A DNA stretch of 34,806 bases, taken from the IMG/VR virus record IMGVR_UViG_3300042507_004361, positions 1 through 34,806 of that record; one strand, written 5' to 3'. This document shows positions 3,170 to 32,811 of the stretch, in pieces. Under the pieces are notes generated by a model. That model had not been told where the DNA came from. It saw only the letters and a program-made list of their open reading frames with translations, and did not search any database. The translations under genes and the position numbers were made by a program. Numbering within the stretch: the first letter of the stretch is position 1; each line of letters opens with the position of its first letter. Source of the DNA: a virus.

Positions 3170-3401
3170 GGTCACGATAGAGGATTTTGACGGGCATTCT
3201 GGGTATCTAGTCGTAGACGATGAACAGACAAATTATCACGACAAAATGCACTTTTGCCTTCCCAGAGAAGACGATATTTGGGACGGAGTTGGATGGTACG
3301 AGTATTACCCACCTAGTGACCAATATCTAAAGCGGATATTTGGCGAAAACGCTGAAGACAAGTTGATTGAACTAATTAAAAAGACAGGACAAGATGAGTA
3401 A
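3153..3401 (+). CDS. Hypothetical acidic protein
   Basis: An 82-residue acidic, aromatic protein of unknown function. It overlaps both the preceding gene (17 bp) and the Bet/RecT gene (8 bp), which implies coupled translation and a role in the same early process. No domain was recognised. Confidence 0.65.
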   Translation: MSNNFKVTIEDFDGHSGYLVVDDEQTNYHDKMHFCLPREDDIWDGVGWYEYYPPSDQYLKRIFGENAEDKLIELIKKTGQDE

Positions 3402-4230
3402 AGAACTAATAACAACCAACAACTTAGAAATGCTTAGCACGCTACGCAATACAGTAGCGCCAGGGCTTACCGATGCAGAATTTATGCTATTTGCAGAAAT
3501 GTGTCGGGCAACTGGACTAAACCCAGCCACAAAGGAGATTTGGGCAATTAAGGCCGGTGGTCGCTTGCAGCTTATGACCGGCATTAATGGGTTCCTCAAG
3601 ATTGCTAATAGTCATCCAGCTTATGACGGAATGGAGGTGGATTTTGAGTGGGATGGGAAAAGCCTGGTATCTGCGACAGTAAAAGTCTATCGCAAGGACC
3701 GACGTTTCCCCTCTGTAGCAACGGCATATATGGCTGAATACAAGAAGGAAACTCCTATATGGAGGACGATGCCTAGTGTGATGCTGGCGAAGTGCGCGAA
3801 GTCACTAGCCATACGCGAGGCATTCATAAACGAGCTTGGTGGGCTCTATACAGCCGAGGAAATGCCCCAAGAGTATGGCGCGGCACGAGTTGACACCAAC
3901 ACAGGCGAAGTCATCACGGCCAAGGCATACAAGGCTGAGAAAAAGGCAGTAGAGGCGCAAGCAAAGGCCGATTTTCATGCCGACCAACTGCCAGACTGGG
4001 ACGCGGAAGTAGTTCAAGCAGAGGCGAAGCCAGAGCCCGTACAGAGCAGAGCACAGCCTACGTTCTACGACGTGTCTAAGCTGGATGAGAAAGGCCGCGT
4101 AGCCGCTGAAAAGTATCTTTCAGACTGTGAAGCCAAAGAAATGACTGCGGGAATATGGCGAGCACCCATCAGACTGCAAAAACTAACTCAGTGCATTACA
4201 GAGGATCGGAGCGATGCTGGTAACATATAA
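3394..4230 (+). CDS. bet: Bet/RecT-type single-strand annealing protein
   Basis: A 278-residue protein. The N-terminal 160 residues carry the Bet/RecT pattern: LTDAEFMLFAEMCRATGLNP followed by KEIWAIK, GGRLQLMTGINGFLKIA, then a beta region (MEVDFEW, ATVKVYRKD) and MLAKCAKSLAIREAF before GGLYTAEEM. Such proteins bind and anneal complementary single strands during phage recombination. The C-terminal third (about 170-278) is charged and less conserved. No RecE or lambda-exonuclease partner is visible, but a PDDEXK protein lies at 7570. The gene overlaps the one before it and sits in an operon with two small PC4-like paralogues. Confidence 0.9.
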   Translation: MSKELITTNNLEMLSTLRNTVAPGLTDAEFMLFAEMCRATGLNPATKEIWAIKAGGRLQLMTGINGFLKIANSHPAYDGMEVDFEWDGKSLVSATVKVYRKDRRFPSVATAYMAEYKKETPIWRTMPSVMLAKCAKSLAIREAFINELGGLYTAEEMPQEYGAARVDTNTGEVITAKAYKAEKKAVEAQAKADFHADQLPDWDAEVVQAEAKPEPVQSRAQPTFYDVSKLDEKGRVAAEKYLSDCEAKEMTAGIWRAPIRLQKLTQCITEDRSDAGNI

Positions 4231-4575: not shown

Positions 4576-4613
4576 AAAACCCCCCTGGTGCAGTTTACGG
4601 CTACACCAGGGGG
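4574..4613 (-). terminator. Leftward intrinsic terminator inside the early operon
   Basis: CCCCCTGGTG (4581-4590) and CACCAGGGGG (4604-4613) form a perfect 10-bp stem. On the minus strand it is followed by six T residues (complement of 4574-4579); no T run follows on the plus strand. It should therefore terminate leftward transcription, although its neighbours are rightward genes. It may stop late transcripts running antisense into the early region. Confidence 0.7.
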
Positions 4614-4669: not shown

Positions 4670-4954
4670 ATGGGAACAAGAATCGGGGCGTTCAAAAGCA
4701 AAAGCGCTCAGTTAGTAATCTGGCAAAATAGCCAGGGCATTAGTTTTGAGTTCGGAAAGCACTACAAAGATAAGCACACCGGCGAATGGAAAAAAACCGA
4801 TAAACTTTACGCAGATGAGTTGCCTCAGATAGCGGATATGTTTAAGCGCGCAGCTATCTGGACGGAGAACCGCGCCAACATGGAAAAGTCGGTGCAGGAC
4901 GCAACGCGAGCTTCAGAAATAGTTAAAACAGTGGTTAGTAAAATAAAGGAGTAA
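4670..4954 (+). CDS. PC4-like single-strand-binding candidate, copy 1
   Basis: A 94-residue protein related to its neighbour at 4956. Shared signature: an LVIW/LAIW strand, then HYKDKHTGEWKKTDKLYADELPQ leading into a long helix. This strand order, the YKDK-x-TGEWK turn and the terminal helix resemble small PC4/YdbC-like nucleic-acid-binding proteins often found near phage recombinases. It lies downstream of Bet/RecT, so single-stranded DNA binding is a reasonable inference but is not shown directly. Confidence 0.6.
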   Translation: MGTRIGAFKSKSAQLVIWQNSQGISFEFGKHYKDKHTGEWKKTDKLYADELPQIADMFKRAAIWTENRANMEKSVQDATRASEIVKTVVSKIKE

Positions 4955-4955
4955 C

Positions 4956-5246
4956 ATGCCGCCAGTTAAAACATTCAAGGAAAAGGGACTGCAGCTTGCA
5001 ATATGGGAAAGCCGAAACGGAGGCTACTCGTACACCATCAGCAAGCGCTACAAGGATAAACAAACCGGCGAGTGGAAAGATTCTAAGTGCCTCTACAAAG
5101 ATGACATGGAAGCACTGCAGCTCATGGTACAATCGGCCATAAGCTACAGCCACGACCGAGCAGAACACGAACACGAGGGCATACCAAGTGGGCAAGGCAA
5201 GCAAGGCGCGGAGGTAATGTACGAGGACGATTTAATACCATTTTAA
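4956..5246 (+). CDS. PC4-like single-strand-binding candidate, copy 2
   Basis: A 96-residue tandem paralogue of the preceding product: LQLAIWE, YSYTISKRYKDKQTGEWK and a helix near residues 50-68. A hydrophilic tail ends in YEDDLIPF. An acidic, Phe-ended tail of this kind is reminiscent of the C-terminal partner-binding tail of bacterial SSB proteins, which copy 1 lacks. The start lies one base after the previous stop, so expression is coupled. Function is inferred. Confidence 0.65.
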   Translation: MPPVKTFKEKGLQLAIWESRNGGYSYTISKRYKDKQTGEWKDSKCLYKDDMEALQLMVQSAISYSHDRAEHEHEGIPSGQGKQGAEVMYEDDLIPF

Positions 5247-5399: not shown

Positions 5400-5443
5400 C
5401 AGCAACGGGCCGTGTCACATGATGCGGCCTGACTAGGAGGAAA

Positions 5444-5680
5444 ATGGAAGAGAAAGACAAATACGGCTGGCGATTACTACTTGGCATGGTTTTGCACAAG
5501 TACAGGCAGGATAATCCATGGGACAAAGGAAGCGACGAGCATTTATCAACAGAGCTATTAGAAGGCTTATACGAGCAAGGTGTGGTTGAAAAGGATGGCG
5601 ATGCTTATGTCCTGCCACCAATGGGAAAAGAGTTTATCCGACACTTAGAAAATAAGTGCAAAGAGTGGGAAGGTGAATGA
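5444..5680 (+). CDS. Hypothetical protein
   Basis: A 78-residue protein preceded by a strong AGGAGG site. It is acidic and helical, with DEHLSTELLEGLYEQGVVEKDGDAYVLPPMGKEF resembling a small winged-helix-like core, though this is not certain. It overlaps the next gene by 4 bp (ATGA). No known family was recognised. Confidence 0.65.
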   Translation: MEEKDKYGWRLLLGMVLHKYRQDNPWDKGSDEHLSTELLEGLYEQGVVEKDGDAYVLPPMGKEFIRHLENKCKEWEGE

Positions 5681-5931
5681 AAACACCAAATGAATTGGCA
5701 GAAGAACATGCTGCGCAGTACTCGGATCCAATTAACAAATGTGTTGCACTCAGCAGTTTTGTTGTTGGCTACGAAGCTGGACGCGCATTAACAGAGCAAG
5801 AGATTGCTGACATTTTAACTGACCTTCGTAAAAGGGAAGAAGAAGACCGCAACAAATTGCCAGCGCATCAAGAGCAAAGACACGCTCGGATTTGGGAGAA
5901 AATAAAAATTAAAATGATAGGAGTGGTCTAA
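5677..5931 (+). CDS. MKTPEELA-module protein 1
   Basis: An 84-residue protein that opens with MKTPNELAEEHA and continues to a FVVGYEAGRA segment, a module shared by four successive genes. The rest is charged and helical. The stop overlaps the next ATG (TAATG). Function is unknown. Confidence 0.7.
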   Translation: MKTPNELAEEHAAQYSDPINKCVALSSFVVGYEAGRALTEQEIADILTDLRKREEEDRNKLPAHQEQRHARIWEKIKIKMIGVV

Positions 5932-6188
5932 TGAAAACACCTGAAGAGTTGGCAATAGAAAAGTTCGATGAATTAGAAGCTCTTATTTTTGAGGCAGCAA
6001 AACGTCATGCCAATGGCTGGCGAGGATGTTGTTTTGCGCTTGGCGCTAGAATAGGAATAGAGGCAGTAACGTCAGCTTTCTTAGAAGGTGTAGATTACGG
6101 ACTGAATTTGAAGGGCGAACCAAAAACTTCACTTTCAGAAGCACTAGCTAAAGCCATTGAAGAGGCAAAAGATGAACAAGACACCTGA
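5931..6188 (+). CDS. MKTPEELA-module protein 2
   Basis: An 85-residue protein starting MKTPEELAIEKFDE. The middle (CCFALGARIGIEAVTSAFLEGVDYG) corresponds to the AGY/AFLxG segment of its neighbours. GGAGTGG precedes the start. It overlaps the next gene by 17 bp. Function is unknown. Confidence 0.7.
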   Translation: MKTPEELAIEKFDELEALIFEAAKRHANGWRGCCFALGARIGIEAVTSAFLEGVDYGLNLKGEPKTSLSEALAKAIEEAKDEQDT

Positions 6189-6393
6189 GCAACTGGCGGT
6201 AGAATGGCACAAAGCGATAATGGCTACTGGTAGAGATCCAGATGGCGCAGATGGTTACGTTGCTGGATACAACGCAGCTATGGCGCAACTACATCCAATG
6301 AAAGAGCAGATACGGGTTATGCGTAAGTTTGTAGCGCAATTAAATGCCGTAAACGATGCGATGCAAGATGAAATGCAGCACTGGGGCTACTAA
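6172..6393 (+). CDS. MKTPEELA-module protein 3
   Basis: A 73-residue protein starting MNKTPEQLAVEWHKA at 6172, chosen over an ATG at 6157 because the shared module then sits at the N-terminus. GYVAGYNAAMAQL follows, then a helical tail. It is the third consecutive member of the series, with a one-base gap to the fourth. Function is unknown. Confidence 0.7.
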   Translation: MNKTPEQLAVEWHKAIMATGRDPDGADGYVAGYNAAMAQLHPMKEQIRVMRKFVAQLNAVNDAMQDEMQHWGY

Positions 6394-6394
6394 C

Positions 6395-6961
6395 ATGAAA
6401 ACACCTGAACAACTAGCAGAGGAATACGCCACGCCACGGTTTGAGACGTATGATGAGACTAAAGGGTACCAGAAGGCTCAGCGTAATGCGTTCTTAGCTG
6501 GCTACCAAGCCGCAAAGGAACACGCACACGCAGCATTGGAAGAGGCTGAGGCTAGGATACAGGAGTTGCGTGACCAGCTAATGGAAGAGTCTGGCGGTAG
6601 GTTAAGGCTATTTAAGGATGAGGCTGATGCAAAGGCAGCGTATCAAGAAGCATGGGAAGACGCAGATACCTGCGAGCATATTCTCGACATGGAGAAAATG
6701 GTGGATGTCAGTAGTTCAGCAACGCTTAACAACTGGATCTCGGTGAAGGATCGGTTGCCGGAGATTCCAGAAAATGACTACAGCAATCGGGTTCTATTGC
6801 TCAGAGCGGATGGATTCATAATAATTGCCAGAATAGAAAAATGTGTTCGATTTGTACGGCCTCTTCAGCAAGCCTTGATTGTCGAAACTGACAACGGCGA
6901 TCCGATTGAAGAGTTCACCCACTGGATGCCGTTACCTGAGCCGCCGAAGGAAGAAGGATGA
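6395..6961 (+). CDS. MKTPEELA-module fused to a DUF551-like domain
   Basis: A 188-residue protein. Residues 1-50 repeat the module of its three upstream neighbours (MKTPEQLAEEYA, then AFLAGYQAAKE). A coiled-coil-like helix follows (about 48-70). Residues about 108-188 match the DUF551 pattern: NNWISVKDRLPE, a strand with VLLLRADGFIIIARI, and FTHWMPLPEPP at the C-terminus. DUF551 is common in early regions of phages and prophages and has no established biochemical role. The ATG at 6395 is preferred over 6356 because it begins the module. Confidence 0.8.
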   Translation: MKTPEQLAEEYATPRFETYDETKGYQKAQRNAFLAGYQAAKEHAHAALEEAEARIQELRDQLMEESGGRLRLFKDEADAKAAYQEAWEDADTCEHILDMEKMVDVSSSATLNNWISVKDRLPEIPENDYSNRVLLLRADGFIIIARIEKCVRFVRPLQQALIVETDNGDPIEEFTHWMPLPEPPKEEG

Positions 6962-7563
6962 ACGCAGACGTGCCGCCACTTAAAATTTGGATTAACGGTA
7001 GTCACTTAGGATTGGAACCAGGCTATGAGCATGGGTATGTATTTGCAGTTCAGAGCTTCAAAAACAGAGCACTACAATTTCACGTTATGTTGGAAAGTGG
7101 TGCTCATTTTCGGCACGTTCCTTTGCATTGGTTGCTTCATCAGCCAATTCCTTTGAACATACAAACTCTCGAACTGCCACTGTTGCAACTTTGGGACTGC
7201 GAAAGCTACAAGCCCGTTGTAACCGTATTTTCCTTTTTGAAAGGCTATCAATGCGATTGCATTTTGAAAGATAAAAAGCGAATAGCCGGAACCTATTGGT
7301 GCACAGTTGATTGGCTACCGGATTCGGACGCAGAAGCAACTTTATTGCTGCAGCCAGACCAAAACAAATGCGCTCACTTAATACTACTGGAAAATGGTCA
7401 AATTGCCGCGCTACCTACAAACCGAGTGTTATGGAAAGATGCGTTTTTCATTGGTAATGACCCAGACGCAGACAAAAAAGGGTACAAAACTGTTGATCAA
7501 ATATTTGAAGCAGAGGATTGCAATAAGTGGTCAGTAGCCAAAACAACGACAACCTTTTATTGA
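6958..7563 (+). CDS. Hypothetical protein
   Basis: A 201-residue protein starting in an ATGA overlap with the preceding DUF551 gene. It is rich in His, Trp and Leu and probably beta-rich, with no membrane span or signal peptide. The Cys residues (CESYKP, CDCIL, CTVDW, CAHLI, EDCNK) are spread out and form no obvious metal site. No family was recognised. Position suggests an accessory early function. Confidence 0.6.
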   Translation: MNADVPPLKIWINGSHLGLEPGYEHGYVFAVQSFKNRALQFHVMLESGAHFRHVPLHWLLHQPIPLNIQTLELPLLQLWDCESYKPVVTVFSFLKGYQCDCILKDKKRIAGTYWCTVDWLPDSDAEATLLLQPDQNKCAHLILLENGQIAALPTNRVLWKDAFFIGNDPDADKKGYKTVDQIFEAEDCNKWSVAKTTTTFY

Positions 7564-7569
7564 GCAATT

Positions 7570-7878
7570 ATGGTAAACAGCAGAGCAAAAGGCGCGAGGG
7601 CAGAACGTGAACTAGCTAACCGGCTAAAAGAGTTTGGCTACGAAGCACACCGAACTCAGCAGTTCTGCGGGAAGGCTGGCAACTCGGATGTTGAGTGCAA
7701 GGAGTTGGTAAACTACCACATCGAGTGTAAGATGGTTGAGGCATTAAACATAGACAAGGCTATGGACCAAGCTACCCGCGATTGTGGGGAACGCACTCCG
7801 ATAGTCGTGCACCGCAAAAAACAGCGTCCCTGGCTAGTTACTATGTTTTTAGAAGACTGGCTAAAGCTACAGAAATGA
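7570..7878 (+). CDS. PDDEXK nuclease, Holliday-junction-resolvase-like
   Basis: A 102-residue protein with the core of small archaeal-Hjc-like or phage PDDEXK nucleases: KGARAERELANRLKEFGYEAHRT at the N-terminus (Glu12), Asp40 in GNSDVEC, and the E-x-K pair Glu52/Lys54 in HIECKM, followed by a helix with AMDQA. These enzymes cut branched or other structured DNA in a metal-dependent way. Here it could resolve recombination intermediates made with the Bet/RecT protein or trim concatemers before packaging. The ribosome-binding site is weak. The next gene starts in its ATGA overlap. Confidence 0.75.
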   Translation: MVNSRAKGARAERELANRLKEFGYEAHRTQQFCGKAGNSDVECKELVNYHIECKMVEALNIDKAMDQATRDCGERTPIVVHRKKQRPWLVTMFLEDWLKLQK

Positions 7879-8192: not shown

Positions 8193-8374
8193 CGCTTCTT
8201 CTTCTTGTCGACTACGGACCAAGCCTGACTTGCACCGTATAGTACAGCGCCAGCTACAACCGGCTCTGCAGCCTTAATTAGCCCGTCTGCTTGCTCCTCA
8301 GTCACTCCAATAGTCAAAAGACTACCAGCAGCCAGGGTCAACAAGTGCCTAACAATGGAGAGTAATATCGGCAT
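8189..8374 (-). CDS. Holin-like small membrane protein
   Basis: A 61-residue protein with GAGG before its ATG. The pattern RHLLTLAAGSLLTIGV - TEEQADGLIKAAEP - VVAGAVLYGASQAWSVV - DKKKKR resembles the Pam3-gp28-type putative phage holins: two hydrophobic helices separated by a short polar turn and a Lys-rich cytoplasmic tail. Holins form membrane lesions that time lysis. It is the last late gene and overlaps the 3' end of the Cys-rich gene by 37 bp. Assignment is by topology and pattern. Confidence 0.65.
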   Translation of the reverse strand: MPILLSIVRHLLTLAAGSLLTIGVTEEQADGLIKAAEPVVAGAVLYGASQAWSVVDKKKKR

Positions 8375-9153
8375 AAAATACCTCGAACTCGCTTAAATGG
8401 ATTATCCTTAAACGCACAATCCCGCTTTCTTGGGTCAATGAACGCACCAGAAATACAGTTCATCCAGGTTTCCCAATAATAGGTTAGGTCACAATGTTTG
8501 TAGTGTTCAACCCATTTCTTGACGTTTATCACCCGACCATCTACCCCGTCCAGGTCAACTATACACGGCTTGTGTATAACAGGATTTGGTCCATGCTTTT
8601 CGCAGACTGCTCCCCTGATACATTTTCTGCCGTAAGGATTATCCACAGGGACACAATAAGGCAGAGCAACAGATACAGAACGCAAGAGTAATCTTCGAGC
8701 AGTTTCATTCAAATCACACTCCAGACACGGCGAAACGTAACACGTCATCGCTCCTTTAGCTGATTCCAACCTCTTTTTCGCCCTCGCTAATACCGCTTCA
8801 AACCTGCGCACCACCCTACCGTTCCACCGCTTCACATCGCGGTTAGCCTTGGCAATCGTATAGCCCCAGAACGGCTCATAACGGCCACAGCGCCCATTTC
8901 TCAAGCAAGGCCCATTCATAAGGTGGACCCGTACAATCTTGTCTCTCGGGTCAGCTAAGAGCCTGTCAGCGCACTTACAATCGTCGGCAAATGTAGCCTC
9001 CAGCCAGCCTGTTACTATCGTTTTCTGCTTGCGCCATGTCTGCATCATGCGCTTACAGTCCCAGGTCTCTGCACACATACCCAGGTAACTCATGCCCTGC
9101 CCATGAGCCGTACCGCAAACTAGCCATGCACACACGGCCAGTAACAACCTCAT
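8338..9153 (-). CDS. Secreted cysteine-rich protein
   Basis: A 271-residue protein with a Sec signal (MRLLLAVCAWLVCGTAHG) and 18 further cysteines in the mature part, an even number that suggests extensive disulfides after export. Notable segments are TFADDCKCADRLL, RVHLMNGPCLRNGRCGRYEPFWGY and CYVSPCLECDLNETARRL. The alternation of strands and helices would fit an enzymatic fold such as a glycoside hydrolase, but no catalytic motif was recognised. It sits between a coiled-coil membrane protein and the holin-like gene, so a lysis or envelope role is likely. Confidence 0.65.
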   Translation of the reverse strand: MRLLLAVCAWLVCGTAHGQGMSYLGMCAETWDCKRMMQTWRKQKTIVTGWLEATFADDCKCADRLLADPRDKIVRVHLMNGPCLRNGRCGRYEPFWGYTIAKANRDVKRWNGRVVRRFEAVLARAKKRLESAKGAMTCYVSPCLECDLNETARRLLLRSVSVALPYCVPVDNPYGRKCIRGAVCEKHGPNPVIHKPCIVDLDGVDGRVINVKKWVEHYKHCDLTYYWETWMNCISGAFIDPRKRDCAFKDNPFKRVRGILCRYYSPLLGTC

Positions 9154-24987: not shown

Positions 24988-26967
24988 TTATTTACCAAAT
25001 ACATACCAGTTTTGACTAAGAACATAGGCACCAGAGCATCCTGAGTAATAGGTTGCTGCTTCGCAAGTTGTTTGATCCCCGTAACCAGAACACGACGGAT
25101 CTCCTTCGCAAAGGCTATCAATGCTGTTCCAAGTGCAGTTTGAGTAACTTTGTGTGCATCCTGATGTTGTTCCGCACGTCGCTTCATTCAAGCCGGAGCA
25201 TGATTCAACTCGGCGAAATGGACTTATGTGCACCCAATCTTTGAAATTACTCAGCGTGTACGAAGTCGTGTGATTTATTTGCTGAGTGCCGTAGGGGACA
25301 ATAATCACATCATTATTTGCAGAACTTGCATTATAGACCCAATAGTCTCTGTCAGGACAGGTGTTCATGTCTGGCAGTGTTAATGTAATAGCGGTTTGCC
25401 AAGTGCATCCAGGCTCGGCGTTGCAATTTGTTGAATCATCAATGCCGCCACACGCTGCCGTTCCGCTGCATGACGCGCCGTAAGTGCCGGTACAGTTGCC
25501 AGTCGCATACGTTCCTGTACACGAATACGAATCGTAAGTTCCAGAACAACTAACGTACCAAGACCCACCAGTGCAAGCGCCAGTGCCGCTATCATAGGTA
25601 CAATAACTACCACCATTTGCTGCATTACAAGCTGTGCCGTCACCGCCACCATCGCTGTAATTAGAACAATCATCAAAGTTTTGCGTACATCCGCTAGTAG
25701 ACCCACACGCTGTTTCATCCAGGCTAGAACAGTCTTGCGGCGTGTTAGTCCAAGAACAGCCAGTGTAGCTTTCGCAGGTTCCTTGATCGCCAAAAGCTGA
25801 GCACGATGCCTGCTCCCAAGTACAGCCAGTTTGCCCTTCGCATCCACTTTGGTCGCCATTGAAAGTGCTGCATGAATAACCTGCAAACCACGAGCATCCA
25901 CCGTGAGCATCACGAGCAAGACAATCGGTTTCGTTTGTGTATGAAGAACAAGCGTTTGTAGGAACTCCACTACAAACAGCGGTCGCTGGATCTGCAATCC
26001 ATTCTGTTGCGGTGTTATCAAGAGTCTGATTAGCTGTAACGTACTTTACTCGAAGTGCTGTACCACCTGAACTTACTAGCGTACTTGTAGGAGCTGATGT
26101 ACCACCTGCATATACACCCTGTTGAAAACCGCCATAGCCGTAATGCGCGAATGCTGCTTGTACGTTGTAACTGATGAGTGTATTGGTAGGTTGGTAGTAA
26201 ACTGCTTGACCGTTCCCACCGCTGATCCAAGTGGAAACCTCACCACTTGAGTTGACTCCTATATGTCCTTTGTTAACTCCCCCAAATCTAAAATCCAGCC
26301 ATGTGTAAGATCCACTGTTGTCAAACAGGGCGTGACGTGTGGTCCCTGGTTGCCCGTTCGATTTACCAGACGCTGCAATCGTAAGCACACCGCTAAATGC
26401 TGTGCCCTCAATGAGCATATTGCCCGATTGAACGTTGCCGCCAGTCAACAGTTTTGCAGATACGTTATCAATCGTTAATCGTGCTGTGTTACTTGGAGTA
26501 AATACCAATCCAGCAGAAGTGTTTGCGCATACAATTCGATAAGAATATGTTCCGGCGGTTGTTAGTGTAGCAAGCGTATTCCCAGCAAAAGTTACCACCA
26601 CGGAACCAGCGGTAAAGTTTGAGATAGTAAACGATACGTCAAATCGTTCACCTAGGTTAAGCGTGGGAGTTTGATTTAGCGTTGCAGTCCCATTTGACGT
26701 TTTTGATACAGAGTTGCTGCTGTATGCCCATCCAGCTCCAACATTCCATCCGGTTGCGCTTCCTGTAAACGATCCGTTTGTAATGCGCTCTGATGCACCC
26801 GATGCCACTGAAAGTGTGTCAGTAGAATCATTAAAATTAAAGTTTTGTGTATCTTGCGCAATTTGACCAGCCGCTCCACCAAACGTAACTCCGCCAGTTG
26901 TAAGAACTGGAACACCATCAACAGTCCAATCTAAATTACCTGTGAACGGATTAAAAACGTAAGGCAT
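24988..26967 (-). CDS. Cysteine-rich tail fibre
   Basis: A 659-residue protein. The N-terminus (MPYVFNPFTGNLDW) is typical of podovirus fibre anchors. Residues about 60-174 resemble a carbohydrate-binding jelly roll (ITNGSFTGSATGWNVGAGW, ending TIDNVSAKLL). A beta-rich shaft follows. Residues 332-646 hold 33 cysteines in degenerate repeats of about 22-24 residues (CSxxxDQxxCExxxGCxW), plus CTGTYATGNC-type units. The repeats recall small disulfide-knot or PSI-like modules of surface proteins, but the family was not identified. It is probably a receptor-binding fibre whose folding depends on disulfides. The next gene encodes a CPYC thioredoxin-like protein. Confidence 0.78.
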   Translation of the reverse strand: MPYVFNPFTGNLDWTVDGVPVLTTGGVTFGGAAGQIAQDTQNFNFNDSTDTLSVASGASERITNGSFTGSATGWNVGAGWAYSSNSVSKTSNGTATLNQTPTLNLGERFDVSFTISNFTAGSVVVTFAGNTLATLTTAGTYSYRIVCANTSAGLVFTPSNTARLTIDNVSAKLLTGGNVQSGNMLIEGTAFSGVLTIAASGKSNGQPGTTRHALFDNSGSYTWLDFRFGGVNKGHIGVNSSGEVSTWISGGNGQAVYYQPTNTLISYNVQAAFAHYGYGGFQQGVYAGGTSAPTSTLVSSGGTALRVKYVTANQTLDNTATEWIADPATAVCSGVPTNACSSYTNETDCLARDAHGGCSWFAGYSCSTFNGDQSGCEGQTGCTWEQASCSAFGDQGTCESYTGCSWTNTPQDCSSLDETACGSTSGCTQNFDDCSNYSDGGGDGTACNAANGGSYCTYDSGTGACTGGSWYVSCSGTYDSYSCTGTYATGNCTGTYGASCSGTAACGGIDDSTNCNAEPGCTWQTAITLTLPDMNTCPDRDYWVYNASSANNDVIIVPYGTQQINHTTSYTLSNFKDWVHISPFRRVESCSGLNEATCGTTSGCTQSYSNCTWNSIDSLCEGDPSCSGYGDQTTCEAATYYSGCSGAYVLSQNWYVFGK

Positions 26968-27215: not shown

Positions 27216-29830
27216 TCTTCAGTATCCTCAATCTCAATGCCTACGGGATTACCAGCTTCATCGCTAATTATCTTACCACGACGCTTCTTAGGCTTGCTTG
27301 GCTTTTCTTTTTCAATAACCATAGGCTTATCAGTTGTTACCATGATAGCGCCTTGTGGCTGTCGTTGAAGCGTTTCCATGCTTAGACGAATCCGCTCAAT
27401 AGACTGCTCGGATGCCAAACGTCGTTCCTCCATGAGCTTTTCAGCTTCGGATAGTTTAATGCGCATCTGCTCCAAATCCAGTTTTTGAATTTCAAGGATA
27501 TGCTGCATCTGGCTGCTTTCTTGCTTAATAAGTGCTTTGTCGGCTTCAGTTTGAGCGCCGGTCTGCACTTTTAGCATATCAACTTCAACGGCTGATTGTT
27601 TAACTTGCACTTCTTGCTGTTGAATAGCAATTTGCTGCATAGCCATATATTCGGAGGACTGCTGCTTTTGAATTGCAAGTTGAGCCTCCAACTGGTCGCG
27701 TTGAGCTTTGAGTTGTTGGTTTTGCACTTCAATTTGATTTTTAACCTGTCGGTCTTGTGCTTCCATTTGAGCAGTTTGAAGCCGAGCTTGTGCCTCAATC
27801 TGAGCAATCTGTAAGCGTCCCTGAACTTCGAGCATCGTGGGGTCTGGTGGAGGAGGTTGTTTAGCAGCCTCTTCCTTGGCTCGTGCGATTTCGCCAATTT
27901 GCTTGAGGGCTTTTGTAAAAATGCCATCTAGCTCCTTGCCGCCTTTGAACCGCCGAATCATGTTTTGGAAAAGGCTAATGCTAAACTCTGCAAGTGGTGG
28001 GTATTGATCAACAAGACCTCGCATTTGGTCAAAAAACGCACCAGCGGTTTGTATAAGTGCTGTGCCTTCTTGTTGTTGTTGCTGTTGATCAATAGCAACC
28101 ATTGAATCGGAAGCGATTTGTATGCGGTAGCAGCGCTTTTTGCTATCGCGCAGAATCTCAATAATTTCTGCCTCAACTCTTTCGATTTCAGCTTCAGGAT
28201 TGCCAGGCATTTGTGCTTCCATGCCTTCTGGCATTTCTGGCATACCCTCTGGCTCCTCGACCGGCTCACCACCGAACGGCATTTCTGGCTGTGGTGCTTC
28301 CATGCCCATTGGCTGTGGCATTGGTGCTGGCGGTTGTGATGGGAGTGTTTCTGCAATAAGCCTGTCGGCGTCTGCTACATCAAGAATTGTCTCTTCGTCG
28401 AACTGCTCGGCGATGATTGTACCCAGGTGCATAATTGCATCCGAGACAAACTTGGTGAATTGATTCTGTCGAACAATTAATCCCATTGACGACCATTGGT
28501 TTTCCAACCTATTGGCCGTAGCTGACTTGTACTGCTCTGATGTGCCTCGAAGTAGGTCAGATACCTTTAAGGTTTCATAAAGCTGCTGTAGCGCATTCTG
28601 GCGGTTCTGCTGAAGGATATTGAGTACGTTTGCAAATTGCTCAACCGGAGCAAACTCAATAGACCCTTGTAGTCCACCTCGGCCACGGTTAGACGGCCAG
28701 TTGTCGACCGGCAAGCCTTTCAAGTCATCCTCAAACAACTGTTGGAGCGTAAGCCCCATAGCTGAGTCAAAAACGAAGTTAGCTCGAACTGCCTGTGTCA
28801 TGGCATGGATTCGAGTAGTTAGTCGCTCAACCTCAAGGATTTGATCCTTAACGTGTGTGTAGTCTGAAACTGGAATTACGGAGTCTGGGTCAGTAGATTG
28901 ACGAATTACGCTGCATGGATAAAACCGCTCAAACTTAATTGGCGGTTCCGACTCCTCAATGATAATTTTTTCGTAGTTAGCTTGAAGCCAATAGACCTTG
29001 TTTGTTGCTTCGCACCAGATTTCCCAAACCTCCGCCTTACCTTCGAGTTTTTCGTTTTTCTGGGTTACATCGCGGCGAGATAGCTCAGGAAAACTGTCGT
29101 AGTGCAGCTTGTCTGCTATTTCCAATCCGAATCGTTCTTCCACCTGGTAACGGTCAAGAAACGCTCGCTTGGCTTGCCATTCAATTTCGCTTTCGTTGCG
29201 AGCATCCGAACAGCGATAGTCGTTATACTGAACAACTTCAAGTACGGCTTTTTCGTCGACCTTTTGTTCAACCTCAACCGATACTAGCAGAATGTTGCCA
29301 CCGGCTTCCTTTGCATTAGTAATGTCGCCGTCAAACGGCTGGCCGTCGGCGGTAAACATTGAGCCTGACGGGTCACGGATAATAGCTATCTCTTGGAACA
29401 CCTTTTCGAACTTAGGCACATACCGCGCCCATAGTACGGCTTGACCTGTTAAGAGAAACTGAAGTGCTGCGTTGTAGCCTACTTTGTCAAAATCAAAGTG
29501 AGTGTCCATCGAGTACTGAGTGTTTCGCTCAATGACGACACTGCCTAATTCGTAGGGGATTCCACCAGCTCGCTTGCGCAGGTTTACTTCTGCTTTCGGT
29601 GTTGAACTATAAAACGCTGGTAGAAGTGTATTGACGCAGTACCACCATACGTTCAAACGGCGTTGTGCATCTTTCAAACTCTCAATTTGTTTTAGTGCAT
29701 TGTAAACGCGAATGGATTCTTCGGCTGCACGAACAAACTTTTCGTGTCGTTTTTCGGCTTCAAGGATTTGTGTTTTCCACCAGCGAGGCGAGTACTTTTT
29801 AACGGAATTAGCTGGCAATTTTATTTTCAT
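27212..29830 (-). CDS. Portal protein (P22-like) with long coiled-coil C-terminus
   Basis: An 872-residue protein. Residues about 1-490 are the P22-type portal core, with an N-terminal helix bundle (WWKTQILEAEKRHEKFVRAAEES), VWWYCVNTLLPAFYSSTPKAEV and the clip/stem region near YTHVKDQILEVERLTTRIHAM. Residues 498-545 are a Met/Pro/Glu-rich linker. A second domain follows, with a six-Gln tract at 582-587. A Gln-rich coiled coil (about 665-820) ends in a basic tail. The long helical C-terminus fits a portal barrel extending into the capsid. The dodecameric ring is the DNA entry channel and binds TerL, whose gene overlaps by 4 bp. Confidence 0.9.
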   Translation of the reverse strand: MKIKLPANSVKKYSPRWWKTQILEAEKRHEKFVRAAEESIRVYNALKQIESLKDAQRRLNVWWYCVNTLLPAFYSSTPKAEVNLRKRAGGIPYELGSVVIERNTQYSMDTHFDFDKVGYNAALQFLLTGQAVLWARYVPKFEKVFQEIAIIRDPSGSMFTADGQPFDGDITNAKEAGGNILLVSVEVEQKVDEKAVLEVVQYNDYRCSDARNESEIEWQAKRAFLDRYQVEERFGLEIADKLHYDSFPELSRRDVTQKNEKLEGKAEVWEIWCEATNKVYWLQANYEKIIIEESEPPIKFERFYPCSVIRQSTDPDSVIPVSDYTHVKDQILEVERLTTRIHAMTQAVRANFVFDSAMGLTLQQLFEDDLKGLPVDNWPSNRGRGGLQGSIEFAPVEQFANVLNILQQNRQNALQQLYETLKVSDLLRGTSEQYKSATANRLENQWSSMGLIVRQNQFTKFVSDAIMHLGTIIAEQFDEETILDVADADRLIAETLPSQPPAPMPQPMGMEAPQPEMPFGGEPVEEPEGMPEMPEGMEAQMPGNPEAEIERVEAEIIEILRDSKKRCYRIQIASDSMVAIDQQQQQQEGTALIQTAGAFFDQMRGLVDQYPPLAEFSISLFQNMIRRFKGGKELDGIFTKALKQIGEIARAKEEAAKQPPPPDPTMLEVQGRLQIAQIEAQARLQTAQMEAQDRQVKNQIEVQNQQLKAQRDQLEAQLAIQKQQSSEYMAMQQIAIQQQEVQVKQSAVEVDMLKVQTGAQTEADKALIKQESSQMQHILEIQKLDLEQMRIKLSEAEKLMEERRLASEQSIERIRLSMETLQRQPQGAIMVTTDKPMVIEKEKPSKPKKRRGKIISDEAGNPVGIEIEDTEE

Positions 29831-32268
29831 ATCTGGGTACGCGCCTGTCGTGCTCTCATTTTAGCAATATAGCTTTGAAGTTTAACTAACCCCTTACCAA
29901 CTACATCTTGCGGTTGTTCCCATTTGGAATCAATCAACCGAGCTTTGCAGAGGTAGCGTAAAGCGTCTACGGCATGGTCGTTGCCGGTAGTGTCTAAGTC
30001 CTCTGGTGAGCGTTTGTCTATCGTCATGGATGGTAAAGTTTCCAATAGGTATGGGCAACTAGCAAAGATGTACAGTAACGGCGGGTTGGACACTAGCCGT
30101 TGTCGGATCTGAGCCCAGCCTGATATGCGGTCATTATCGGCTGCACGAAACGCAGGGTGTTTGTATTTGGAGAATACGGCAGTAAATTGGTCGTTAATGC
30201 TTGGTCCACCTTCATGACTGAAAATGGATGGGTCAGCTACTGCTATTGCATTTTCTCCCACGGAAACTGAGGCAATTCGGTTAGCTTGTTCGACGTTATC
30301 AACTCCTTTTCCCCACATTTCCCGATAGATAACAATAGCTCCTTTTGGATACGGTACCTCGTTACCTCGGTCATCACGTCCAGAACTAACAGCGCCCCAG
30401 ACGGCAGCAAAAGGACTCCGATAACCCCAATCATACCCCAAATAACGGGGCCAATGCTTTGGTATGTTGAAAGGAGCAACAATATGTTTAGAACTAAACT
30501 CTGGAAAATAACTGCCTTCATGTATTTCAAAGTCTCCTTCAAGCCATGCTCGCACCAGTTCTGGTGAACCTACCATGTGCAATCGGTTGATGTATTCTGG
30601 ATCTCTGGCAAGTAAGATTTGGTTGTCAGTTACGCGGCTAGGTATGTAAATGTAGTCAAATCCGGCTCCATTAGGTAAATCCTTCCGCAAAACCTTCATG
30701 CCTTTTGGGGCCGGTTTTATGAACAGTTCTTTGAGCCAGCTATGCCCTATACCACCAGGGTTGAAGGTAAGGATGATTTGGCCGCCTCCCTTGCCTCGTA
30801 GCGCTCCAAATAGCTTCCAGATACAGCTTGGGTCATGGTAGTTACCAGCCTCCTCTATGGCGCAATCTGAGTTCTTGTTGATGAGGCCGCAATCTGATAT
30901 GTAGTGATTAGCTTCTTCAACAGTTAAATCGGTAACTAATTGCTTACCAACGTATGTCATTACCATCTTTCCAAAAACAACATCCTCAGCGAGATAAAAC
31001 GCCTTGCCGCTATAAGGATGCACCCACCACTCTAAGTGCTCAGGGCTATGTTTTTGAATGGTGCCCGACTCATCCCCGTTCAATGTATGGGACAATTCAG
31101 CAACACCGTCTTGTAATGGAAGTTTACCTTGGCCGTTTTCTACAGCCTGGGGAGAATGTTCATCACATAAACCACGACAAAACTGACAATCGCATTGAGA
31201 ATTTGCAATTGTTTGCTTCGTGGTCGGAACATTTGAAGGAGCATCACAAAGCGTGGAGAGCGAACCCAGAACTGGTTGAAAAAGTGCGTCAAGCTGCTCA
31301 AAACCCTGCTGTATCTTTTGCTTCATTAGGCATGAGTCCGACGACTGTTCGCAAGATTTGCCAGGAGCATGACATTCAGTGGAAGCGGCGTGGGAACAAC
31401 GTGCGAGCTTACGAGCTAACCGAACAGTCGGTGCGTGAAGCGTTACAGGGACGGACAACGAATCAAGCTGCTGCGTATTTAGGGTGTCATCCAATGACTC
31501 TGTACAATAAGTTTTCTTATCTTCTTTCCAAGAGAACCAAGCCTGGTGCTTTAGACCCCTATATGCGGGAAATATACGATCTACGTTACAAGCAGATAGT
31601 GCCCATTGCAGAGATTGCTGGTCGATATGGCGTTTCTGAGACGTGTGTTGCAAGGAGTTTGCAGAGATGGAAGAAACTCCGTGTGCCGTCAAAACAGGGT
31701 GCCAAATGGGATTTCTCTGCGCCCCCACCACGTTGCCGTCCTGGTCCAAAACCTGGCTCTCGACGCAAGGGGCTAAGTAAGGCGTAGTAAGATTTTTGAC
31801 TTTTCGTGGCCCTAATAAGGTTGCCACCATATCGCCTATTTGAATAGCTTCTATCGGCTTAAACGAGCCGTCTGCCATTCTGATACGAGTACCGACAGCT
31901 ACGCATAAATTCTGGCCCTGGTATTTTTCAGCATCAGAATCATTAGCTAGCGGTCTGAAGCGAAGTCTGCCCCCGTTTACAAAAGTGAACTGTTTTTTCT
32001 GATCCTGCCAGTGCGCTTTTAGGGGTAGGTAAATCTGCTTGGCTCGCTCAATCAGGTCGTCTGCTTGAGGTAATTCTTTACGGAAAAATATGGCATTAAA
32101 GTGAGGTCCAAGTTGCTCTTGTTTAACGGCAAACTTGCCTAACACCCCATCAGTTTTGCCACCACCACGAGCACCACCATAGCCGATTAAGGTTATTGGA
32201 CACGCTACTAAAGCCTCCTGAGGGCCGATCTGAGGGCACCATACAACATTATAGTCAATGTTTTCCAT
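29827..32268 (-). CDS. terL: Terminase large subunit interrupted by an intein
   Basis: An 813-residue precursor. The exteins (1-121 and 467-813) join to a normal 468-residue TerL. Walker A is GYGGARGGGKTD (29-40). Walker B is CAIEEAG (469-475), right after the splice point. The coupling region is LTFNPGG. The nuclease acidic residues are Asp613 in GYDWGY, Asp679 in ADPS and Asp764/Asp768 in NDHAVDAL. TerL pumps DNA into the procapsid through the portal and cuts concatemers. Residues 122-466 are an intein (C122 to N466, followed by Ser467). The start codon has no strong Shine-Dalgarno and lies 3 bp after an HNH gene, so it probably relies on coupling. Most of the intein is read antisense to another gene. 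Confidence 0.93.
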   Translation of the reverse strand: MENIDYNVVWCPQIGPQEALVACPITLIGYGGARGGGKTDGVLGKFAVKQEQLGPHFNAIFFRKELPQADDLIERAKQIYLPLKAHWQDQKKQFTFVNGGRLRFRPLANDSDAEKYQGQNLCVAVGTRIRMADGSFKPIEAIQIGDMVATLLGPRKVKNLTTPYLAPCVESQVLDQDGNVVGAQRNPIWHPVLTAHGVSSISANSLQHTSQKRHIDQQSLQWALSACNVDRIFPAYRGLKHQAWFSWKEDKKTYCTESLDDTLNTQQLDSLSVPVTLHAPTVRLARKLARCSHAASTECHAPGKSCEQSSDSCLMKQKIQQGFEQLDALFQPVLGSLSTLCDAPSNVPTTKQTIANSQCDCQFCRGLCDEHSPQAVENGQGKLPLQDGVAELSHTLNGDESGTIQKHSPEHLEWWVHPYSGKAFYLAEDVVFGKMVMTYVGKQLVTDLTVEEANHYISDCGLINKNSDCAIEEAGNYHDPSCIWKLFGALRGKGGGQIILTFNPGGIGHSWLKELFIKPAPKGMKVLRKDLPNGAGFDYIYIPSRVTDNQILLARDPEYINRLHMVGSPELVRAWLEGDFEIHEGSYFPEFSSKHIVAPFNIPKHWPRYLGYDWGYRSPFAAVWGAVSSGRDDRGNEVPYPKGAIVIYREMWGKGVDNVEQANRIASVSVGENAIAVADPSIFSHEGGPSINDQFTAVFSKYKHPAFRAADNDRISGWAQIRQRLVSNPPLLYIFASCPYLLETLPSMTIDKRSPEDLDTTGNDHAVDALRYLCKARLIDSKWEQPQDVVGKGLVKLQSYIAKMRARQARTQI
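30871..31905 (-). other. Intein in TerL (345 residues, 122-466 of the precursor)
   Basis: The N-terminal splicing block starts at Cys122 (CVAVGTRIRMADGSFKPIEAIQIGD). Block B contains NPIWHPVLTAHG with His190, although the usual Thr three residues earlier is Pro. Blocks F/G are LVTDLTVEEANHYISDCGLINKN, ending in Asn466 before Ser467. The penultimate residue is Lys instead of His, a variation I recall from other inteins. Removing it restores YQGQNL-SDCAIEEAG, a continuous TerL Walker B region. Only about 120 residues at the two ends look like Hint; the remaining 220 or so have no recognisable domain in this frame and lie opposite the HNH gene. Splicing is inferred from motifs. Confidence 0.85.
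30954..31787 (+). CDS. HNH homing-endonuclease-like gene, antisense inside the intein
   Basis: A 277-residue protein on the strand opposite TerL, wholly inside the intein. Residues about 31-99 are an HNH_3-type domain: GYVFEWCPTHPRS, HRLVMEVYLGRFLQPGENVHHINHDKTDNRIENLQL (His51, His70-His71, Asn79, Asn83), then SEHLKEHH. Residues about 118-240 contain three helix-turn-helix-like units (SFASLGMSPTTVRKIC; TTNQAAAYLGCHPMTLYNKF; PIAEIAGRYGVSETCVARSL), as in modular phage HNH endonucleases. The last 25 residues are Pro/Arg/Lys-rich and lie opposite intein block B. There is no visible Shine-Dalgarno before ATG 30954. It probably cuts DNA of intein-free or related phages and so spreads the element. 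Confidence 0.9.
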   Translation: MSLPSFQKQHPQRDKTPCRYKDAPTTLSAQGYVFEWCPTHPRSMYGTIQQHRLVMEVYLGRFLQPGENVHHINHDKTDNRIENLQLFASWSEHLKEHHKAWRANPELVEKVRQAAQNPAVSFASLGMSPTTVRKICQEHDIQWKRRGNNVRAYELTEQSVREALQGRTTNQAAAYLGCHPMTLYNKFSYLLSKRTKPGALDPYMREIYDLRYKQIVPIAEIAGRYGVSETCVARSLQRWKKLRVPSKQGAKWDFSAPPPRCRPGPKPGSRRKGLSKA

Positions 32269-32271
32269 TGG

Positions 32272-32811
32272 TTATGTCACTATTTTCCACTTTTTGCCAG
32301 TAACTATATTGTGAATATGCTTGCTATCTACGCCGTATTTTGCACCCAAACTGCGGGTGGTATGTCCACCTTCGGCGTACAATTTTCTAATTTCCAAAAC
32401 CTGCTCTGGTTTTAATTTAGCATTTTTATGTTTCGACCCGAACCAAGTACGTCCTTTTAATGCCATATCACGCATATTGTCTTGATGTGTTCCAAGAAAC
32501 AAATGTTCAGGATTTACACACTGCGGATTATCGCACTTATGAAGAACGTGTTTGTCACCAATAGGTCCTTTGCAAAACTCATACATAAGCCGATGCACTT
32601 TATACTGTTTGCGATTGTCTCGATTGCCTTTTTCACGCACGTTAATGGTGCCGTACCCGTTTTTACGGCCTAAACCGCCTGTCCAGTAATGGCAATCACT
32701 AAATGGAATTTGAATAATGTAACGATGGAGTCGATTAAGAATGTGCTGCTGTGTGTAACCCAATATCATGTGGCCCACTATGACAGGCCCTGCAATGGTT
32801 GCCAGGCCCAT
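32272..32811 (-). CDS. HNH endonuclease with C-terminal helix-turn-helix
   Basis: A 179-residue protein with GAGCAGG before its ATG. The HNH_3-like core is CHYWTGGLGRKNGYGTI, then VHRLMYEFCKGPI, then VLHKCDNPQCVNPEHLFLGTHQDN (His91, Cys93, Cys98, Asn100). Residues about 132-176 (LKPEQVLEIRKLYAEGGHTTRSLGAKYGVDSKHIHNIV) are a helix-turn-helix typical of free-standing phage homing endonucleases. The stop lies 3 bp before the TerL ATG, so it splits a zinc-ribbon gene from terL. It is of a different subtype from the antisense HNH inside the intein. A packaging-associated HNH function is also possible. Confidence 0.88.
   Translation of the reverse strand: MGLATIAGPVIVGHMILGYTQQHILNRLHRYIIQIPFSDCHYWTGGLGRKNGYGTINVREKGNRDNRKQYKVHRLMYEFCKGPIGDKHVLHKCDNPQCVNPEHLFLGTHQDNMRDMALKGRTWFGSKHKNAKLKPEQVLEIRKLYAEGGHTTRSLGAKYGVDSKHIHNIVTGKKWKIVT

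Follow-up and report, generated by a model that had tools for sequence, protein, structure and literature searches.

Ea22 of phage lambda is described as a tetrameric protein made of an N-terminal part, a coiled coil and an exchangeable C-terminal domain (PMC10834534). Ea22 variants are also encoded in the exo-xis region of Stx phages, where one of them ends in a DUF551 domain and the genes are described as mosaic (PMC10834534, PMC8614690). Tetramer formation, early expression and a pro-lysogenic effect are among the features expected of the Ea22 family. The DUF551 domain is likewise found in proteins of phages and prophages such as YfdS, which has been linked to oxidative-stress tolerance (PMC4776307). 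For mosaic phage genomes in general, junctions are reported to carry a short common boundary sequence, and recombinase-assisted exchange has been proposed (PMC3029335, PMC2327257). Such boundary sequences were put forward for genome modules and are described as unidentifiable at most boundaries (PMC3029335).

In this work we analyze the uncultivated virus record IMGVR_UViG_3300042507_004361, whose 34,806 bases constitute the window. Four small genes on its + strand (A to D), located between recT and a resolvase-like nuclease gene (Table 1), belong to a large family of mosaic genes carried by uncultivated tailed phages. Interchangeable pieces meet at a few short, nearly invariant DNA stretches in this family, and each phage carries its own combination. 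Conserved regions also flank exchangeable parts in type I restriction specificity subunits and in polymorphic toxins, enabling new in-frame combinations by recombination; the likeness of the A–D family to these systems is one of analogy, and our Pfam scans detected no restriction or toxin domain.

The comparison with Ea22 reveals an architectural likeness only, which concerns gene D alone: its product is predicted to combine a short N-terminal part, a long coiled coil and a folded C-terminal domain, and the array, like ea22, lies close to a single-strand annealing gene. Unlike in the Ea22 layout, genes A to C lack a C-terminal domain, the N-terminal module is a different one, several short paralogues are arrayed, combinations are far more numerous and the joints are conserved in DNA. 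The Ead/Ea22 family (profile name from PMC10834534) was not listed for A–D by hmmscan against Pfam at E up to 1, and no tyrosine integrase was matched in the window. Gene D shares with YfdS and similar proteins a DUF551 domain scoring over the Pfam cut-off, which sets it apart from A, B and C. Unlike the boundary sequences proposed for genome modules, the joints described here lie inside coding genes, are repeated several times in a genome and preserve the reading frame. Boundary sequences are visible here in many copies, within genes and with a codon-level signature that separates DNA-level from protein-level conservation, which makes the boundary-sequence hypothesis directly testable.

The gene array and its relatives

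The original prediction proposed that four consecutive genes share one N-terminal module, followed in most of them by a second conserved segment, and that the last is fused to a DUF551 domain. All four open reading frames (ORFs) were confirmed in place on the + strand. A six-frame scan of the window with the pattern K[TS]Pxx[LIVM] matched six places: the four gene starts, where block 1 (the first conserved segment) lies, and two others that are not ORF starts. Block 2 is present in A (SFVVGYEAG), C (GYVAGYNAA) and D (AFLAGYQAA) and absent from B. The AFLEGV stretch of B comes about 40 residues past block 1 and belongs to the body of the protein; in the closest relative (locus L024) the homologue of this body has no KTP start. 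When residues 1–60 are aligned, no more than 1 of 500 shuffles reaches the score of any pair among A–D. Past residue 12 a signal persists, at a shuffle frequency below about 5 %, only for C/D (4/500 shuffles reach the score) and A/D (26/500), the corresponding counts being 43 for A/B, 60 for B/D, 61 for A/C and 449 for B/C. The notion of a common module extending beyond its first residues holds for A, C and D, gene B being alike in the first residues only. Between copies in the array, DNA is alike in two short blocks and unrelated in between.

Table 1. Features of the gene array and of the neighboring recombination genes; coordinates refer to the window
Feature	Coordinates	Strand	Description and evidence
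recT, single-strand annealing protein	3394..4230	+	Candidate recombinase; PF03837 2.5e-30, phrog_252 3.8e-41
Gene A	5677..5931	+	84 aa: block 1, V segment, block 2, tail LTEQEIADILTDLRKREEE...; ORF, module HMM 4e-09
Gene A block 1 (MKTPNELAEE)	5677..5706	+	Alignment; direct repeat with 5931 and 6395
Gene A block 2 (FVVGYEAG)	5758..5781	+	Alignment, module HMM
Gene B	5931..6188	+	85 aa: block 1 (5931–5960) on an otherwise different protein
Gene C	6172..6393	+	73 aa: block 1 (6172–6204), V, block 2 (6256–6279, YVAGYNAA), tail
Gene D	6395..6961	+	188 aa: block 1, V, block 2, long helix, CEHILDMEKMV segment, DUF551
Gene D joint 1 (MKTPEQLAEE)	6395..6424	+	Homology to L015 starts here; DNA upstream unalignable
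Gene D variable segment V	6425..6490	+	DNA 88% identical to L015; tails differ
Gene D joint 2 (FLAGYQAA; core GCTGGCTAC)	6491..6514	+	Synonymous sites near-fixed; homology to L015 ends within
Gene D predicted long helix and CEHILDMEKMVDV segment	6515..6709	+	Model helix (residues 20–90) begins upstream; both reused in other genes
Gene D DUF551 domain	6734..6949	+	PF04448; short isolated DNA matches at either end
DUF551 entry motif (WISVKDRLPE)	6734..6763	+	
DUF551 exit motif (THWMPLPEPP)	6917..6946	+	
PDDEXK / Holliday-junction-resolvase-like nuclease	7570..7878	+	Downstream of array; PF24608 2.2e-07, phrog_244 1.3e-19

The fusion of gene D to DUF551 is supported by a PF04448 match of 45 bits (cut-off 22) over residues 114–185, and no such domain was matched in A, B or C by Pfam at E 1. 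DUF551 aside, searches of Pfam and NCBIfam gave no match over cut-off for the four proteins (sub-threshold matches only in NCBIfam), and PHROGs matches below E 0.01 exist for D alone, confined to its C-terminal half. Homologues of the gene A tail occur in L036 and L079, on different V segments (V being the segment between the blocks), and those of the gene B body in L024, L031, L036, L071 and L098. The start of gene B (~5930–5954) yields isolated, mostly exact blastn matches of 23–28 nt at roughly 25 loci among the matches listed, some of them duplicates of one contig. Genes B and C overlap by 17 nt, with block 1 of gene C encoding, in another frame, the end of B (DEQDT-stop). The tail search detected no homologue of the gene C tail in any other locus fetched. 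Two adjacent genes upstream of the array (4670–4954 and 4956–5246, + strand) appear to be paralogues of each other (KSKSAQLVIWQ / KEKGLQLAIWES) and match no family over cut-off, and the strong 13-pair hairpin at 4581–4613, after which the − strand has a T-run, is terminator-like. Promoters were predicted no more often than in shuffled sequences.

Relatives were collected by protein searches with gene D and RecT and with a degenerate DNA pattern unconstrained at synonymous positions, yielding 119 virus loci, or 66 clusters after merging loci with a common exact 200-mer. Two loci that have an exact 200-mer in common, L074 and L079, come from records seemingly of different groups. A module profile (E up to 0.01) identified 170 distinct genes in 84 loci once 48 DNA-identical genes had been removed; a few of these matches are probably false, such as the 554- and 650-aa proteins of L102 and L096. 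Excluding 42 genes in which the pattern did not find both blocks and collapsing 3 at 95% identity left 125 non-redundant two-block genes from 61 phage clusters. Of 32 records searched in full, 31 contain at least one module match, with a maximum of six and four in the window (gene B contributing block 1 only); these records were picked from loci obtained mostly with module-derived queries, so the figures do not measure prevalence.

In isolated phages, neither tblastn with the 62 N-terminal residues of gene D (even at E 10) nor a near-identity search with 25 kb returned a match, and low-complexity filtering may hide short matches. In bacterial genomes, the module alignment produced 115 pattern stretches of which tblastn confirmed none, a negative that is weak because the module is short, and the full-length alignment produced 45 loci, nearly all over the DUF551 part only. 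Judged by titles and abstract openings, the literature searches returned no paper describing the module. The family is real, large and, within the searches made, undescribed. The profile search of phages also bears out the expected picture of a reusable module with interchangeable C-termini, widespread among related phages. The family amounts to a natural collection in which N-terminal segments set in one frame are joined to different tails, suited to asking what small phage accessory proteins bind, and DUF551 gains many natural fusion partners.

Mosaic structure and codon-level conservation of the joints

The 125 genes comprise 72 types of V segment (10–35 residues, median 21; Chao1 estimate ~174 types) and 72 types of tail. 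Gene pairs with the same V share their tail in 17 of 132 cases, where random pairing expects 4.9 (sd 2.5), and in 14 of 125 when the pair comes from different phage clusters; the excess over random indicates that V and tail are not fully free of each other. The V type YIRYDNESAYWTKHA, with its close forms, is found in eight genes with eight different tails. The 115 pairs with the same V and different tails have a mean DNA identity of 0.83 in block 1, 0.78 in V and 0.80 in block 2, and of 0.46 both upstream and in the tail; in 400 sampled unrelated pairs the means are 0.75 for block 1, 0.43 for V, 0.72 for block 2, 0.45 upstream and 0.46 in the tail. DNA homology between genes of the former kind opens with the start codon or with block 1 and ends inside block 2 or close to it.

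Individual comparisons reveal the same boundaries. Gene D can be aligned with a gene of L015 from the start codon through block 2 and not beyond, and L088 and L106 are near-identical up to block 2 and different after it, as in a tail swap. The V segment of L087 has 96–98% DNA identity with those of L061, L065 and L118, which we do not count as sharing across phage groups, and L121 carries a DUF551 domain 89% identical to that of gene D on an unrelated N-terminus. The alignment of the window with L024 (90.6% over 2,047 nt) breaks inside block 1 of gene C and resumes at block 2 of gene D, and L024 has a single gene in this place; the extra DNA of the window lies between these two points. Isolated matches to the 66 clusters, none longer than 70 nt, occupy 125 locus-bins across the window, and 93 of these bins lie within 5600–7000. 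Short homology is therefore found here at the junctions of otherwise unrelated modules, as expected of boundary sequences.

Codon usage in the blocks is the strongest feature of the family. The Thr of KTP is encoded by ACA in 122 of 123 cases and the Ala of FLAGY by GCT in 109 of 110; the block 1 Pro is CCT in 96/117 and the block 2 Gly is GGC in 96/121. Taking one gene per V type, ACA is found in 70/70 and GCT in 61/62. Elsewhere in the same loci, ACA encodes 0.48 of 145 near-start Thr residues and GCT 0.45 of 583 Ala residues preceding Gly. As a control we scored 318 conserved four-fold sites in the remaining genes of these phages; their median is 0.52, with 11 of them at 0.9 or above and not one at 0.97. 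Scoring left out five of the 19 control genes, which had fewer than 8 sequences, and covered two more (8 and 13 sequences) that do not count among the 318; in one of these, tail9775, 1 of 12 sites is at 0.97 or more. Fixation is uneven within the blocks, the Phe codon being TTC or TTT at about 50:50 and Ala-7 near random beside a GCT at 99%; simple homogenization does not predict this and is not a sufficient explanation by itself. Values are also raised at some codons of the DUF551 entry (87 distinct contexts) and exit (55), of the HAHAALEEAEA linker (22) and of CEHILDMEKMV (16). Homology breaks at or near the blocks, and block DNA is conserved beyond what the protein needs.

The upstream stop codon overlaps the start by 4 nt in 52 of the 125 genes and by 1 nt in 8, and lies deeper in block 1 in 38; 20 genes show no overlap and 7 have no clear upstream ORF. 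Because the upstream stop is often located within it, block 1 doubles as a stop/start junction. CCT before GA provides TGA in another frame, which supplies a reason for CCT and not for ACA. The V segments are under purifying selection (approximate pN/pS 0.23, 119 pairs) and hence constitute working protein sequence. Tyrosine integrases are present in 5 of the 32 records (L007, L078, L079, L087 and L093), none with RecT over cut-off and all with a terminase large subunit that is distant (35–52% identical) or undetected; the same module and joints are present in them.

Origin of the mosaic and alternative explanations

Each gene is assembled from block 1 (the start codon and KTPEELAEE), a V segment, block 2 (FLAGYQAA) and a tail; in many genes, though not in all, this tail is a coiled-coil helix with DUF551. 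The blocks likely act as short homology joints at which copies in co-infecting phages, or neighboring copies, recombine in frame with the help of phage annealing proteins (RecT or ERF). The products, less certainly, may be small accessory proteins acting like lambda Ea22, with a two-helix hairpin presenting V, a helix mediating oligomerization and an exchangeable tail carrying the effector part, so that each phage would hold its own set of host- or rival-directed adaptors. Ea22 being the closest described architecture, we infer oligomeric adaptors with exchangeable ends from the comparison. We assign a probability of roughly 0.6 to this explanation taken as a whole. As to mechanism, recombination at the joints is probably carried out by RecT/ERF-type annealing proteins, and most weight is given to short-homology exchange combined with selection; the joints may be simply the places at which in-frame recombinants survive, or may be maintained for recombination. 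RecT is found over cut-off in 22 of the 32 records. A search of the 10 that remain detected ERF in 2 and Rad52 in none; 8 records have neither RecT over cut-off nor ERF, and many of the 32 are fragments. Red-type annealing is reported to recombine diverged sequences efficiently (PMC2327257). A diversity-generating retroelement was rejected on account of the reverse transcriptase (PF00078), found in 0/32 records, and a DNA-invertase cassette on account of inverted repeats, of which 5400–7000 contains none of 14 nt or more.

The original prediction interpreted the array as a tandem duplication followed by the acquisition of new C-termini. The swappable ends are borne out, but they point to mosaic assembly rather than to duplication with divergence in place, which is contradicted for A–D and quite improbable as a general account. 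The genes do lie head to tail, and one clear case of recent duplication of the module within an array is provided by two neighbors in L005 that are 100% identical in block 1, V and block 2 and differ in their tails. A single ORF of L049 (10492–11088) likewise contains two tandem modules, which meet in an HAHAALEEAEA region and look like a fossil of module joining. Against this, the V segments of neighbors are unrelated while the V segments and tails of the array recur in other phages in other combinations, as the gene D segment does in L015; block DNA is conserved around an intervening segment that is at background (0.43), and gene B has block 1 only. The varied combinations of V and tail, together with the near-fixed synonymous sites, indicate mosaic genes with conserved intragenic joints and not plain tandem duplicates. 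The blocks could instead be conserved for protein structure and translation alone, through start-codon context and codon choice, with ordinary phage recombination and joints that have no special role. Their residues are predicted to lie on a helical hairpin, the start regions of other genes also prefer ACA, and non-uniform codon fixation resembles selection on particular bases. We nonetheless regard this as unlikely, given that block 2 is intragenic yet as strongly fixed as block 1, that elsewhere GCT encodes only 0.45 of the Ala residues preceding Gly, that no control site is fixed to the same degree and that homologous runs stop at the blocks.

A dedicated sequence-specific system that recognizes ACACCTGA and GCTGGCTAC to exchange cassettes would account for core bases that are near-invariant at both sites flanking V, for the 76 occurrences of GCTGGCTAC in non-redundant sequences (72 in the FxAGY frame, where chance expects 5.1) and for the recurrence of the same codons in the loci of integrase-bearing records (ACA in 9/10 and GCT in 8/9 readable genes). 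Yet no dedicated recombinase, no inverted repeats at the sites and, in the 32 records, no reverse transcriptase were found; neither core is enriched outside these genes, and the other joints (DUF551 entry and exit, CEHIL) differ in sequence, leaving such a system a slim chance. An RNA-level element, either a conserved structure or the target of a regulator at each mRNA start, would agree with the synonymous conservation and the start-codon position, but it appears highly improbable, as the consensus structure has at most 3 pairs, none supported by covariation, and six modules fold no better than their shuffles (z −0.83 to 0.90). A bolder possibility extends short-homology exchange into a combinatorial diversification locus, in which selection would maintain the cores ACACCTGA and GCTGGCTAC and both DUF551 end motifs as in-frame joints, and a pool of V segments and tails would be continually re-assorted across phage groups into new host- or competitor-directed adaptors; we consider it doubtful.

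Predicted protein structure and other genes of the window

The module is modeled with good confidence as two helices (pLDDT 90), block 1 opening the first and block 2 sitting in the second, which in gene D continues to residue 90. In the complete model of gene D (helices 4–12 and 20–90, beta strands within 132–179; mean pLDDT 79, pTM 0.42), a helical hairpin and a long helix precede the beta domain of DUF551. The products had been envisaged as host-interaction proteins whose shared N-terminus could bind one common partner. Such a partner is possible; the invariant block residues map to the two predicted hairpin helices, so a structural role would explain them at least as well. DUF551 proteins head the structure matches in BFVD, and those of the long helix are unrelated coiled coils. 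The DUF551 part (residues ~116–186) matches Sm and Hfq chains with Z of 4.0–5.0, values that can mean a common arrangement only (rmsd 1.9–3.8, 49–60 residues), and we treat this weak likeness in the model as a lead only. Among solved structures, sequence searches gave three matches, the best at E 0.45 and none credible. No Pfam or PHROGs family was matched in more than one of 67 representative modules scanned singly (E 0.1), and five tail peptides and three whole genes had no Pfam match over cut-off.

Other genes of the window present additional features. Relatives conserve a cysteine-rich protein of 271 aa with a signal-like start (8338–9153, − strand; 35 sequences) that has no Pfam or PHROGs match. 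The terminase large subunit gene (29827–32268, − strand) contains an intein-like insert with weak, below cut-off Hint matches at residues 122–160, and an ORF encoding HNH plus HTH lies antisense within it (30954–31787, + strand). In relatives with terminases up to 99% identical, the frames measure mostly about 470–495 aa and in a few cases 600–830 aa, a variation that suggests that some relatives carry the insert and others lack it. The gene adjoining that of the terminase (32272–32811, − strand; PF13392, 8.5e-13) encodes a second HNH endonuclease. Lastly, a 659-aa protein (24988–26967, − strand) carries many short cysteine-rich repeats in its second half.
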